A stretch of DNA of 52,582 nucleotides from Mariprofundales bacterium (GTDB lineage Bacteria; Pseudomonadota; Zetaproteobacteria; Mariprofundales; J009). A model generated the notes under the pieces. It was not told the DNA's origin, did no database searches, and saw only the letters and a list, made by a program, of their open reading frames with translations. Positions 4,477-51,019 of this stretch are shown here, piece after piece (within the stretch, counting starts at the first letter, position 1; each line of letters opens with the position of its first letter). Location: positions 1-52,582 of the forward strand of contig JAUZRF010000087.1 in the NCBI GenBank assembly GCA_030950645.1, read 5' to 3'. The translations under genes were made by a program, and so were the position numbers.

Positions 4477-4580
4477 GGGTAGTGCACTCTGGGTCAGTTC
4501 TTTGAGCAGTACTAAATATTAAAGGAGGGGGTGGATCAGTTTTTTGAGCAAAGTCGGGTCAATTTTGGTGAGCGCCCAAG

Positions 4581-4670
4581 TAGCGGCGTTGAAAAATGCT
4601 CATTGACAGTAGTAAACTTAAGCTTTTTCTCTTTGCTATCAGAAAAATCAGAAGCAATCTGAGCAGCTAC
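4581..4670 (-). repeat. Truncated copy of the GTAACTACTCAG MITE-like element
   Basis: tagcggcgttgaaaaatgctcattgacagtagtaaac...gaagcaatctgagcagctac; lacks one terminus. Confidence 0.85.
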
Positions 4671-4713: not shown

Positions 4714-4866
4714 GTAACTACTCAGATCACTCTCGGTTTTCCTGATAGCGGCGTTGAAAAATGCGCATTTACAGTAGTAAATTCCGCTTTTTCGCCTTGC
4801 TGTCAGGAAAACCATAAGCAATCTGAGCAGTTACAGCCATTTTTTGGTAGGGTGCTGAGTAGTTAC
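4714..4866 (-). mobile_element. MITE-like element, near-full copy
   Basis: GTAACTACTCAG ... CTGAGTAGTTAC termini with long imperfect inverted repeat; ends 7 bp before the recJ ATG. Confidence 0.9.
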
Positions 4867-13135: not shown

Positions 13136-13203
13136 TCTCCTTGTGAACTCGCGCCTCGGGAAAACAGTCCGTAGCGGCTCAATTGCTTCTCGTTTCTTAA
13201 CGC

Positions 13204-13240
13204 AGCGATCGGGAAAATGAGGAGTGGTCTGCGTAGTTAC
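13204..13240 (+). repeat. MITE right-end fragment
   Basis: gcgatcgggaaaatgaggagtggtctgcgtagttac matches the cgctatcgggaaaaccgggagtgagctgagtagttac end. Confidence 0.65.
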
Positions 13241-13253
13241 AGTTTATAAGGAG

Positions 13254-13332
13254 GTAACTACTCAGCACCCATTGAAAACATCCCGTAACTGCTCAGATTG
13301 CTTTCGGTTTTCCTGATAGCAAGGTGAAAAGC
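13254..13332 (+). repeat. MITE left-half copy (subtype II)
   Basis: gtaactactcagcacccattgaaaacatcccgtaactgctcagattgctttcggttttcctgatagcaaggtgaaaa. Confidence 0.85.
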
Positions 13333-13362
13333 ATGAAATTCAAGGAGCCGGTCTATGCTGCC

Positions 13363-14218: not shown

Positions 14219-14440
14219 TTATTTGAGGGGAATCATCCCTCGTTCAGCAAGGGCTCCCGAATCCGCACATGACCCCCCTCTTCTGTAGCGGAAGATGGGT
14301 CAAGGAGGAGTGCGGAGCGAAGTGTAGCAAGCTTTTTGAGGCATCTGGAGCGTAAGTAGTCTTGGGCATGTGCGGATTCGGGGTGGGTAATCAGCTGTTC
14401 TAAACGGCCTGCCTCATCGTGGCACACCCCCCTCAAATAA
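14219..14440. repeat. Nested inverted-repeat element
   Basis: Outer IR TTATTTGAGGGG (14219-14230)/CCCCTCAAATAA (14429-14440); inner perfect 16-bp IR CCCGAATCCGCACATG (14256-14271)/CATGTGCGGATTCGGG (14367-14382). Confidence 0.7.
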
Positions 14441-14449
14441 GCCGGAATG

Positions 14450-14601
14450 GTAACTCTCAGCACCCTACCAAAAAATGGCTGTAACTGCTCAGATTGCTTC
14501 CGGTTTTCCTGATAGCAAGGCGAAAAAGCGGAGTGTACTACTGTAAATGAGCATTTTTCAACGCCGCTATCAGGAAAACCGGGAGTGAGCTGAGTAGTTA
14601 C
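14450..14601 (+). mobile_element. MITE-like element, full copy with 8-bp TSD
   Basis: gtaactctcagcaccctacc...gagctgagtagttac flanked on both sides by ccggaatg (14442-14449 and 14602-14609). Confidence 0.93.
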
Positions 14602-14620
14602 CCGGAATGTAACAAGCGCC

Positions 14621-15964
14621 CTATCCGCAGGTGACGCGGTTTTTCCCTTCGTGCTTGCTGCGATAAAGGTTTTCATCTGCCAGTTTCAGGGTGCGTTCGT
14701 AGTCAGGGTGATAGTCGTACAACGCGCCACCGATACTGGCGGTGACATGCAACTCCCCGCCATCCTTCAGCGGCACCGCCAACGCAGCAATCGCTTGCCG
14801 CAGCCGTTCGGCCTGATTGGCCAGCTCTGAAGGTGTCACATTGGTTAGGATGAGCAGCATCTCTTCACCGCCGTAACGAAAGGCGAAATCGGTGGGGCGA
14901 ATGGCGTGTAGCATCGTCTCGCCCACCTTTTTGAGCACCGCATCCCCCGCATCATGGCCATGGGTATCGTTGATCACCTTAAAATCATCCAAATCCAGCA
15001 TCAAAAGGCCAAATCGTTCCTGGTTTTTGGTTGCCACCCTGATCTCATTCTGCAAGATGGCGGCCAGGAAACGGCGGCTAAGCAGTTGGGTTAATACATC
15101 TTTGCTGTTTTGCTCTTCGGCCACATGATCAATCAGACCATCCATGTGCCAAGAGAGGCGGCTGATGCAGTCGTTGGCCTTTTTGAGGATGATCGATTGA
15201 TCTTTTCCCTCTGCTTCAGCCAGTGTGGCCAGTACCTCGTTCAGGCGTACCAGCATCTCCGTCATCTCATGTGTTTCTTTCGAATGTGGGAAATAGAAGG
15301 TGGCCTTGTGCCGCACCCAGAGCGCGAACGGAGAGCAGTGGACATCGCAATGGTGCCCAGAACCATGGAGGCCAATTTCGGTCAGTAGCTCGCGGAACCA
15401 ATCAAATAACTCCGCCCGCATCCGCTCACATTCCACACTGAGGTTAAGACTGGAGGTCTGCATGCGCAGTGAGTGTGCCTCCTTCTCGGCACTGGTGACC
15501 TGCTCCAGATAGGCTTGGTTGATCGCCGTCAGGCAACTATCGAGCAGGGCATCGATAAATTGAATCCCTTCCATCATCTGCTGGCGACCCGCCTCTGCGT
15601 CGAGCGCGGCCACAAAATGGCGAACAGCACCGCTTTTGATAATCATCATGCCACGGTTGACCAGATACATCGGCAACTCAATGCGCGCATGCACGGTACC
15701 GATATGAATCTGGTGTGCTAGAAAATCATCTACCCGCTGCTCAGCGGAGAGTGAAAAGACATCCAACAACCAGCGGCGCATCGATTGGATGAGGCGCTGT
15801 TGTACCATCTCATGGTCAAGAAAGACGGCAGATGGGGGGAAGGCCATCAATTGACGATAGAAGTCCACCGTCAACTCGGCTTCATGCTGTTCGATCACCG
15901 TTAGCACCTGACGACGAATCTCGATCGGGCACTCCCGATAGGTTTTGAGCAAGTTGTCGCGCAT
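14621..15964 (-). CDS. Globin-coupled-sensor diguanylate cyclase (DosC/YddV-like)
   Basis: N-terminal protoglobin-like IHIGTVHARIELPMYLVNRG; C-terminal GGDEF variant FRYGGEEMLLIL; start trimmed to MRDNLLKTY because the upstream ORF extension lies in a MITE. Confidence 0.87.
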   Translation of the reverse strand: MRDNLLKTYRECPIEIRRQVLTVIEQHEAELTVDFYRQLMAFPPSAVFLDHEMVQQRLIQSMRRWLLDVFSLSAEQRVDDFLAHQIHIGTVHARIELPMYLVNRGMMIIKSGAVRHFVAALDAEAGRQQMMEGIQFIDALLDSCLTAINQAYLEQVTSAEKEAHSLRMQTSSLNLSVECERMRAELFDWFRELLTEIGLHGSGHHCDVHCSPFALWVRHKATFYFPHSKETHEMTEMLVRLNEVLATLAEAEGKDQSIILKKANDCISRLSWHMDGLIDHVAEEQNSKDVLTQLLSRRFLAAILQNEIRVATKNQERFGLLMLDLDDFKVINDTHGHDAGDAVLKKVGETMLHAIRPTDFAFRYGGEEMLLILTNVTPSELANQAERLRQAIAALAVPLKDGGELHVTASIGGALYDYHPDYERTLKLADENLYRSKHEGKNRVTCG

Positions 15965-15979
15965 GGTTATCTCCCTTTC

Positions 15980-16134
15980 GTAACTACTCAGCTCACTCCC
16001 GGTTTTCCTGATAGCGGCGTTGAAAAATGCGCATTTACAGTAGTAAACTCCGCTTTTTCGCCTTGCTATCAGAAAAACCGGAAGCAATCTGAGCCGTTAC
16101 AGTCATTTTTGGGTAGGGTGCTGAGTATAGTTAC
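15980..16134 (-). mobile_element. MITE-like element, full copy with near-perfect TSD
   Basis: gtaactactcagctcactcc...ggtgctgagtatagttac; flanks tccctttc / tacctttc (7 of 8 identical). Confidence 0.92.
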
Positions 16135-20694: not shown

Positions 20695-20782
20695 GGAAGG
20701 GTGGCAGAGTGGCCGAATGCACCGGTCTTGAAAACCGGCAATGGGAAACCATTCGTGGGTTCAAATCCCACCCCTTCCGCCA
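20695..20782 (+). tRNA. tRNA-Ser (TGA)
   Basis: GGAAGGG acceptor pairs with CCCTTCC, TTCAAATC T-loop, anticodon TGA in ggtcTTGAaaacc, long variable arm, encoded CCA. Confidence 0.95.
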
Positions 20783-20840
20783 TTGCCATGTATATTTTCG
20801 ATCCATGCGCGGAATCCGTTAGCGCCTAGCAACCCTCTTT

Positions 20841-20992
20841 GTAACTACTCAGCACCCATTGAAAACATCCCGTAACTGCTCAGATCGCTTCCGGTTTTTC
20901 TGATAGCAAGGCGAAAAAGCGGAGTTTACTACTGTCAATGCGCATTTTTCAACGCCGCTATCGGGAAAACCGGGAGTGAGCTGAGTAGTTAC
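20841..20992 (+). mobile_element. MITE-like element (subtype II), full copy with perfect 8-bp TSD
   Basis: gtaactactcagcacccattg...gtgagctgagtagttac flanked by ccctcttt (20833-20840 and 20993-21000). Confidence 0.95.
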
Positions 20993-21013
20993 CCCTCTTT
21001 ATGGTTGGAGACC

Positions 21014-26156: not shown

Positions 26157-26225
26157 GTAACTACTCAGCGCACTTCCGGTTTTCCCGATAGCGGCGTTGA
26201 AAAATGCTCATTTACAGTAGTAAAC
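26157..26225 (-). repeat. MITE half copy
   Basis: gtaactactcagcgcacttccggttttcccgatagcggcgttgaaaaatgctcatttacagtagtaaac; stops at the palindrome centre. Confidence 0.88.
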
Positions 26226-26234
26226 ATAGTGAGT

Positions 26235-32050: not shown

Positions 32051-32202
32051 GTAACTACTCAGCTCACTCCCGGTTTTCCTGATAGCGGCGTTGAAAATGC
32101 GCATTTACAGTAGTAAACACCGCTTTTTCGCCTTGCTATCAGGAAAACCGGAAGCAATCTGAGCAGTTACAGCTATTTTTGGGTAGGGTGCTGAGTAGTT
32201 AC
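32051..32202 (-). mobile_element. MITE-like element, full copy
   Basis: gtaactactcagctcactcc...gggtgctgagtagttac. Confidence 0.92.
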
Positions 32203-32203
32203 A

Positions 32204-32313
32204 TTTACTACTGTGATCCTCTTGCAAAACTCATGAGTTTTGCAAGAGGCTTCTCTAAATGATCGTTTTTTAACGCTGTAATCAGGAAAATAAGGCGTGA
32301 GTTGAGTAGTTAC
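32204..32313 (+). repeat. MITE right half interrupted by a perfect palindrome
   Basis: tttactactgt ... aaatgatcgttttttaacgctgtaatcaggaaaataaggcgtgagttgagtagttac. Confidence 0.75.
32218..32249. repeat. 32-bp perfect palindrome
   Basis: CCTCTTGCAAAACTCATGAGTTTTGCAAGAGG equals its reverse complement. Confidence 0.95.
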
Positions 32314-50542: not shown

Positions 50543-50696
50543 GTAACTACTCAGCACCCTACCAGAAAATGGCTGTAACTGCTCAGATTGCTTCCAGTTT
50601 TTCTGATAACAAGGCGAAAAAGCTTAAGTTTACTACTATAAATGAGGATTTTTCAACGCCGCTATCGGGAAAACCGGGAGTGAGCTGAGCAGTTAC
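50543..50696 (+). mobile_element. MITE-like element, full copy
   Basis: gtaactactcagcaccctaccagaaaatgg...gtgagctgagcagttac; flanks gtctgttc/atctgtaa partly alike (5 of 8). Confidence 0.9.
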
Positions 50697-50738
50697 ATCT
50701 GTAACTTGCATCGCGTTATGTTGTCAGGAGTGGCGGGG

Positions 50739-50812
50739 TGGAGCGGGTGAAGGGAATCGAACCCTCGTTCTCAGCTTGGGAAGCTGCTGTACTACCATTG
50801 TACTACACCCGC
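50739..50812 (-). tRNA. tRNA-Gly (CCC)
   Basis: Reverse complement GCGGGTGTAGTACAATGGTAGTAC...GCTTCCCAAGC...GGGTTCGATTCCC...ACCCGCTCCA. Confidence 0.9.
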
Positions 50813-50864
50813 ATGATACGCATATTCACCCTGATGGATGGTATCTTGCAACCTTTACCGACGG

Positions 50865-51019
50865 GTAACTACTCGGCACCCTACCAGAAAATGGCTGTAA
50901 CTGCTCAGATTGCTGCTGATTTTCCTGATAGCAAGGCGAAAAACCTTAAGTTTACTACCGTAAATGTGCATTTTTCACCGCAGTTATCGGGAAAATAAAA
51001 AAGTGATCTGAATTATTAC
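50865..51019 (+). mobile_element. MITE-like element, diverged full copy
   Basis: gtaactactcggcaccctacc...aagtgatctgaattattac; flanks accgacgg/accagcgg (6 of 8). Confidence 0.85.

Follow-up and report, generated by a model that had tools for sequence, protein, structure and literature searches.

The locus poses two questions: which enzyme moves a short palindromic repeat that encodes nothing, and whether the body of this repeat descends from the transposon whose ends it bears. The window, i.e. the whole analysed stretch of 52,582 nucleotides, contains the repeat as a dispersed family. The index copy consists of a 31-bp head (20841..20871, + strand), formed by GTAACTACTCAGCACCC and a spacer and representing the outer IS66-like end, and a 121-bp palindromic core (20872..20992, + strand) recognised by profile match and fold. 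The two copies of an 8-bp target-site duplication, CCCTCTTT, flank it at 20833..20840 and 20993..21000. Further headed copies are located at 14450..14601 (+) with the duplication CCGGAATG/CCGGAATG, at 15980..16134 (-) with a duplication of 7/8, at 50865..51019 (+; diverged, 6/8), and, without a clear duplication, at 4714..4866 (-), 32051..32202 (-) and 50543..50696 (+). Profile searches placed fragments at 4580..4670 (-; core positions 1-90), 13187..13240 (+; right end of the core), 13254..13336 (+; head and left part of the core), 26157..26226 (-; core positions 52-121) and 32250..32313 (+; core positions 58-121), the last preceded at 32204-32249 by a foreign CCTCTTGCAAAACTC inverted repeat. 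For all twelve copies and fragments the coordinates and flanks given in the original prediction were exact, and when the window was searched independently with a profile, the same twelve and none besides were returned.

The predicted palindrome of ~152 bp has to be divided. The length was correct for head and core together; the palindrome itself spans 121 bp, with plus and minus end motifs paired 109 bp apart, and the head is an addition on one side only, visible as extra same-strand end motifs at a distance of 31 or 32 bp. It is composed of GTAACTACTCAGCACCC and a spacer of 14 or 15 bp. Among 83 full copies, 36 had no head, 44 had one and three had two. Position 7 of the motif is A in the outer motif of the head and usually G in the inner motif of the core (45/47), while core-only copies bearing duplications carry either A or G. 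In the index copy the terminal inverted repeats GTAACTACTCAGC/GCTGAGTAGTTAC are complementary in 13 of 13 bases, and the 152-bp copy folds with a z-score of -9.0 on the given strand. Short (121-153 bp), non-coding and bounded by terminal inverted repeats, the element has the form of a MITE.

Tabulation of copy numbers and 8-bp flanks revealed a dispersed family larger than first stated. The 12-mer GTAACTRCTCAG occurred 933 times (466 + 467) in the 2.0-Mb draft genome, its reversed control not once. A profile search of 424 kb of sampled contigs yielded 110 non-overlapping copies, 84 of full length, presenting a density of one per 3.9 kb and 3.2 % of the sampled sequence; the extrapolated copy number of the genome is ~515-530. 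The copies were nearly all intergenic, and every full copy that could be placed was outside the genes called by a simple gene caller. Their distribution over gene orientations, 49 codirectional, 17 divergent and 6 convergent, follows intergenic length. A terminator role had no support, as the orientation classes lacked a convergent excess.

Transposition rather than a passive REP-like origin had been proposed for these copies, and a genome-wide lack of duplications beyond chance was named as the finding that would speak against it. Perfect 8-bp duplications were present in 20 of the 83 full copies and duplications of at least 7/8 in 27, against an expectation of ~0.1 computed from mismatched flank pairs. 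A scan of the same copies for duplication lengths from 3 to 13 gave nothing comparable except 8 bp. The duplications border the outermost motif in core-only and headed copies alike, and in headed copies never the inner motif. Copies with duplications were less diverged (median of 4 versus 6 differences, p = 0.03). In seven other genomes, with the ends set by fixed cap motifs only, 49 of 79 copies had a duplication of at least 7/8, while 0.14 were expected. Duplications far above chance, here and in the other genomes, thus support real transposition, and their fixed length together with multiple precise, separate insertions is what characterises a MITE. Joining the flanks of intragenic copies restored a long reading frame nowhere except in an IS66 remnant; this one internal empty site supports insertion.

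For the mobiliser, the original prediction pointed to the IS66 family, for which 8-bp target duplications are known, and the search for an insertion sequence with the MITE termini yielded elements of this family. A relative (G039) contains a 1.64-kb element with GTAACTATTCAGC at both ends and an IS66-family transposase between them (Pfam PF03050; NCBIfam NF033517, 303 bits versus a cut-off of 180). The MITE end agrees with both ends of this intact element in 12 of 13 bases, and IS66 fragments in other genomes of the same order also end with GTAACTATTCAGC. The genome of the window itself has one IS66 remnant (C51:2130-2387), whose 3' end, GGGTGCTGAGTAGTTAC, matches the reverse-complemented head of the MITE in 17 of 17 bases, the first 17 of the index copy. 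A MITE is nested in this remnant with the duplication GAAAAAAT, and after subtraction of the MITE and one repeat the reading frame continues along the IS66 TnpC. The ends are thus common to IS66 elements of the same lineage and the duplication has 8 bp. On these sequence comparisons an IS66-capped MITE is nearly certain, and we infer that IS66 TnpC moves it in trans. No target duplication was present at the flanks of the intact element in G039. In the assembly of the window's genome the one remnant is accompanied by no intact IS66 that has such ends, so the family is not proven to be mobile at present. Another genome, G001, had at least 14 MITE matches and no IS66 match. In G055, of the same order, ~21 IS66 fragments (L135, L119 and similar) were found mostly at contig ends, with no detectable member of this MITE family.

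The hairpin of the MITE is not confined to IS66 ends. BLAST with the window element against six named genomes retrieved the full 152-bp anatomy in G066, a MAG titled Gammaproteobacteria. In an Ectothiorhodospiraceae MAG and in one titled Proteobacteria, the same search detected the inner hairpin as part of palindromes that end differently. Of 299 Pseudomonadota genomes, 14 contained the exact inner pattern AGTTTACN{2,8}GTAAATGAGCATTT (control 0), usually within a larger palindrome. The full IS66-capped pattern was present in 11 of the 299, all from the window's own order, and the inner hairpin occurs in families without the IS66-capped form. The conserved innermost part reads AAGGC...GCGNAG-stem-loop-stem-TGAGCATTTT...AACGC. 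Two cap types coexist in G196 (family f16), GGGCRCCTCT and CAGGCYGTTG. Exact 4-bp duplications flanked 8 of 14 elements with the former (0.3 expected) and 10 of 15 with the latter, there at YTAR targets; the expectation for this cap is as high as 3.1 because the target is specific. The bodies are ~89 % identical between the caps and 92-93 % within one cap type. In 26 of 28 comparisons the nearest neighbour carried the same cap, thus swaps are rare. The shared inner hairpin behind different caps means that one hairpin is associated with three or more kinds of end and with duplications of two lengths. Patterns excluding the interior gave MITE variants and single or decayed ends, and no autonomous parent for either the GGGC or the CAGG cap.

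Base pairing within the hairpin was evaluated in an alignment of 16 representatives from eight genomes with 46 pairs. Paired cells amounted to 95.1 %, compared with 84.3 % after shuffling and 34-46 % with slid partners. Changes on both sides affected 22 of the 46 pairs and 79 cells against 26.8, and none of 500 shuffles attained any of the covariation measures. Among the resident copies of this genome, 27 both-side changes versus 18 were slightly above independence and mostly shared variants. This low compensation indicates that pairing is maintained between subfamilies and not after insertion. It could be accounted for either by selection acting on the mobile lineage or by correction of quasi-palindromes through template switching; we favour selection, in which the hairpin would be kept as a transposition substrate or as a less harmful intergenic insert.

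The observed duplications, the terminal match, the nested insertion with its continuous frame, the covariation and the common hairpin under different caps are best read together as a trans-mobilised superfamily of palindromic MITEs that swaps its terminal caps and thereby its transposase partners, a reading to which we assign a probability of roughly 75 %. On this reading, the GTAACTAYTCAGC ends would serve as binding sites of TnpC, which would cut out or copy the 121-153 bp unit and integrate it with a stagger of 8 bp, the surviving copies being almost all intergenic. The body is not a shrunken IS66; it is a self-complementary hairpin and belongs to a superfamily spread more widely in the Pseudomonadota, in which the innermost part is conserved and the stems drift with compensatory changes. 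The caps differ in their transposition signature, 8 bp for the IS66-like cap, 4 bp for GGGCRCCTCT and 4 bp at YTAR for CAGGCYGTTG, and an exchange or capture of caps is the presumed mechanism by which the same hairpin changes its transposase. The head, a 31/32-bp add-on that can be tandem and places an IS66 terminus beyond the end of the core itself, is plausibly an intermediate of cap exchange, caught in progress. The distribution of caps suggests that one parasitic hairpin repeatedly switched the transposon carrying it. The odds are about even for the broader proposition that the hairpin is an ancient modular parasite across the Pseudomonadota, exchanging caps for unrelated transposases with its inner structure under lineage-wide selection.

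Bacterial MITEs are commonly regarded as derived from a single IS by deletion. An amplified, internally deleted IS66, with an incidental likeness of the hairpins or a single old horizontal transfer, would explain the GTAACTAYTCAGC termini, which share 13-17 identical bases with single-ORF IS66 (TnpC), and the 8-bp duplications. Unlike IS66, the MITE is non-coding and, when a head is present, has the 12-base end repeat twice on one side. Its interior shared only 9-13-mers at chance level with the IS66 elements tested; nothing convincing matched beyond the termini, and origin by internal deletion of these elements was rejected. With the exact inner hairpin also present in families without the IS66-capped form, where it has other ends and 4-bp duplications, the plain derivative is unlikely.

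Conserved mismatched joints, covarying stems and the variety of caps would also be expected if the hairpin itself were the mobile, REP-like unit, moved by an enzyme of the Y1/RAYT type or by another one that recognises structure, with the GTAAC caps being secondary. The duplications abut the caps exactly, their lengths are specific to the cap, no copy was seen with a duplication abutting a bare hairpin, and Y1 HUH transposases, to our knowledge, leave no target duplications; we therefore consider a mobile bare hairpin very unlikely. A host function in RNA processing, termination or mRNA stability, with copies spread mainly by selection for it, is hardly credible. It would fit the very stable fold and the intergenic placement. 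Against it, there was no excess of copies between convergent genes (6/72 copies versus 6.7 % of the intergenic bases), and compensated changes were not enriched among the resident copies. At gathering scores Rfam identified only two tRNAs in the window and left the element itself unmatched; in 20 related loci no Rfam match was obtained at E-values up to 1. The cap-swapping superfamily remains the preferred reading.

With Correia/NEMIS, ERIC, MITEPsy1 and MITEAba12 the element shares shortness, lack of coding capacity, inverted ends and target duplications, and with the Correia elements also the hundreds of intergenic copies. None of these MITEs is known to combine a single structured core with several transposase signatures. 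MITEPsy1 is IS5-like with 4-bp CTAG/YTAA targets (PMC3189936), and its only resemblance, that of the target, is to the CAGG-capped cousins. REP/REPIN sequences with their RAYT transposases are likewise palindromes of intergenic regions that have conserved mismatches and a high copy number. REPs have 20-40 bp and GTAG/CGTC tags (PMC3733652); unlike these, the MITE has 121-153 bp, 8-bp duplications and GTAAC ends on both sides. An identity as a GTAG/CGTC-tagged REP was rejected on length and ends. MITE-like intergenic repeats of 100-177 bp, among them R6 and R178, were described for Pseudomonas fluorescens (PMC2718517). Some repeats of the R6/R178 type could belong to the hairpin superfamily; the comparison was made by description, the sequences being absent from the main text. 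A 2024 review on MITEs does not mention IS66 (PMC10969869). A literature search that covered few subscription journals found no paper printing these sequences or describing an IS66-linked MITE, and a named MITE may exist in ISfinder. MITE, IS66 and hairpin are each known kinds, while the architecture of exchangeable caps appears to be new. Three points go beyond the original prediction: the head, a body that does not stem from IS66, and the renewed use of the hairpin behind different ends elsewhere. IS66 is named here as the driver of a MITE, a role for which no earlier paper was found. The genome presents a very dense case, with a copy about every 4 kb, and the head makes a probable cap exchange visible in the sequence. 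Since a conserved hairpin occurs with three or more types of end and with duplications of two lengths, the old question of how MITEs outlive their parents can be tested directly.

Several observations concern the surroundings of the copies in the window. The index copy follows a tRNA-Ser gene (20695-20782) downstream at a distance of ~60 bp, and two copies (50543-51019) bracket a tRNA-Gly gene (50739-50812). The window's MnmG has its best named match, at 56 % identity, in a MAG titled Zetaproteobacteria, followed by matches of 45-51 %, and the taxonomic placement is accordingly provisional. The ORFs 14233-14676 and 14621-16087 run into the copies 14450-14601 and 15980-16134 and may obtain start codons or extensions of the C-terminus from them. 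At 32218-32249 one MITE fragment contains a perfect inverted repeat of 15 bp, CCTCTTGCAAAACTC..GAGTTTTGCAAGAGG, which may be one end of a further mobile element; a single CCTCTTGCAAAACTC arm was also found at C102:14909, inside another MITE, and at C29:9661.

The window element had no match among plasmids, and a search of viral contigs for the IS66-capped anatomy gave none. Plasmid matches of the G196 element were nearly all from Pseudomonas, and a Pseudomonas-type element had no match in phages. Three IMG/VR viral contigs (L436, L437, L438) contained the inner hairpin, with non-IS66 caps in L437 and L438, the two that were read. Elements with this hairpin may travel on phages or prophages. 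In L352, L335 and L342, hairpins of the Pseudomonas and Halomonas type have an extra stem inserted near the apex (GATCGGACTCGCGCACGAG), and such extra apical stems suggest a stepwise growth of nested stems.
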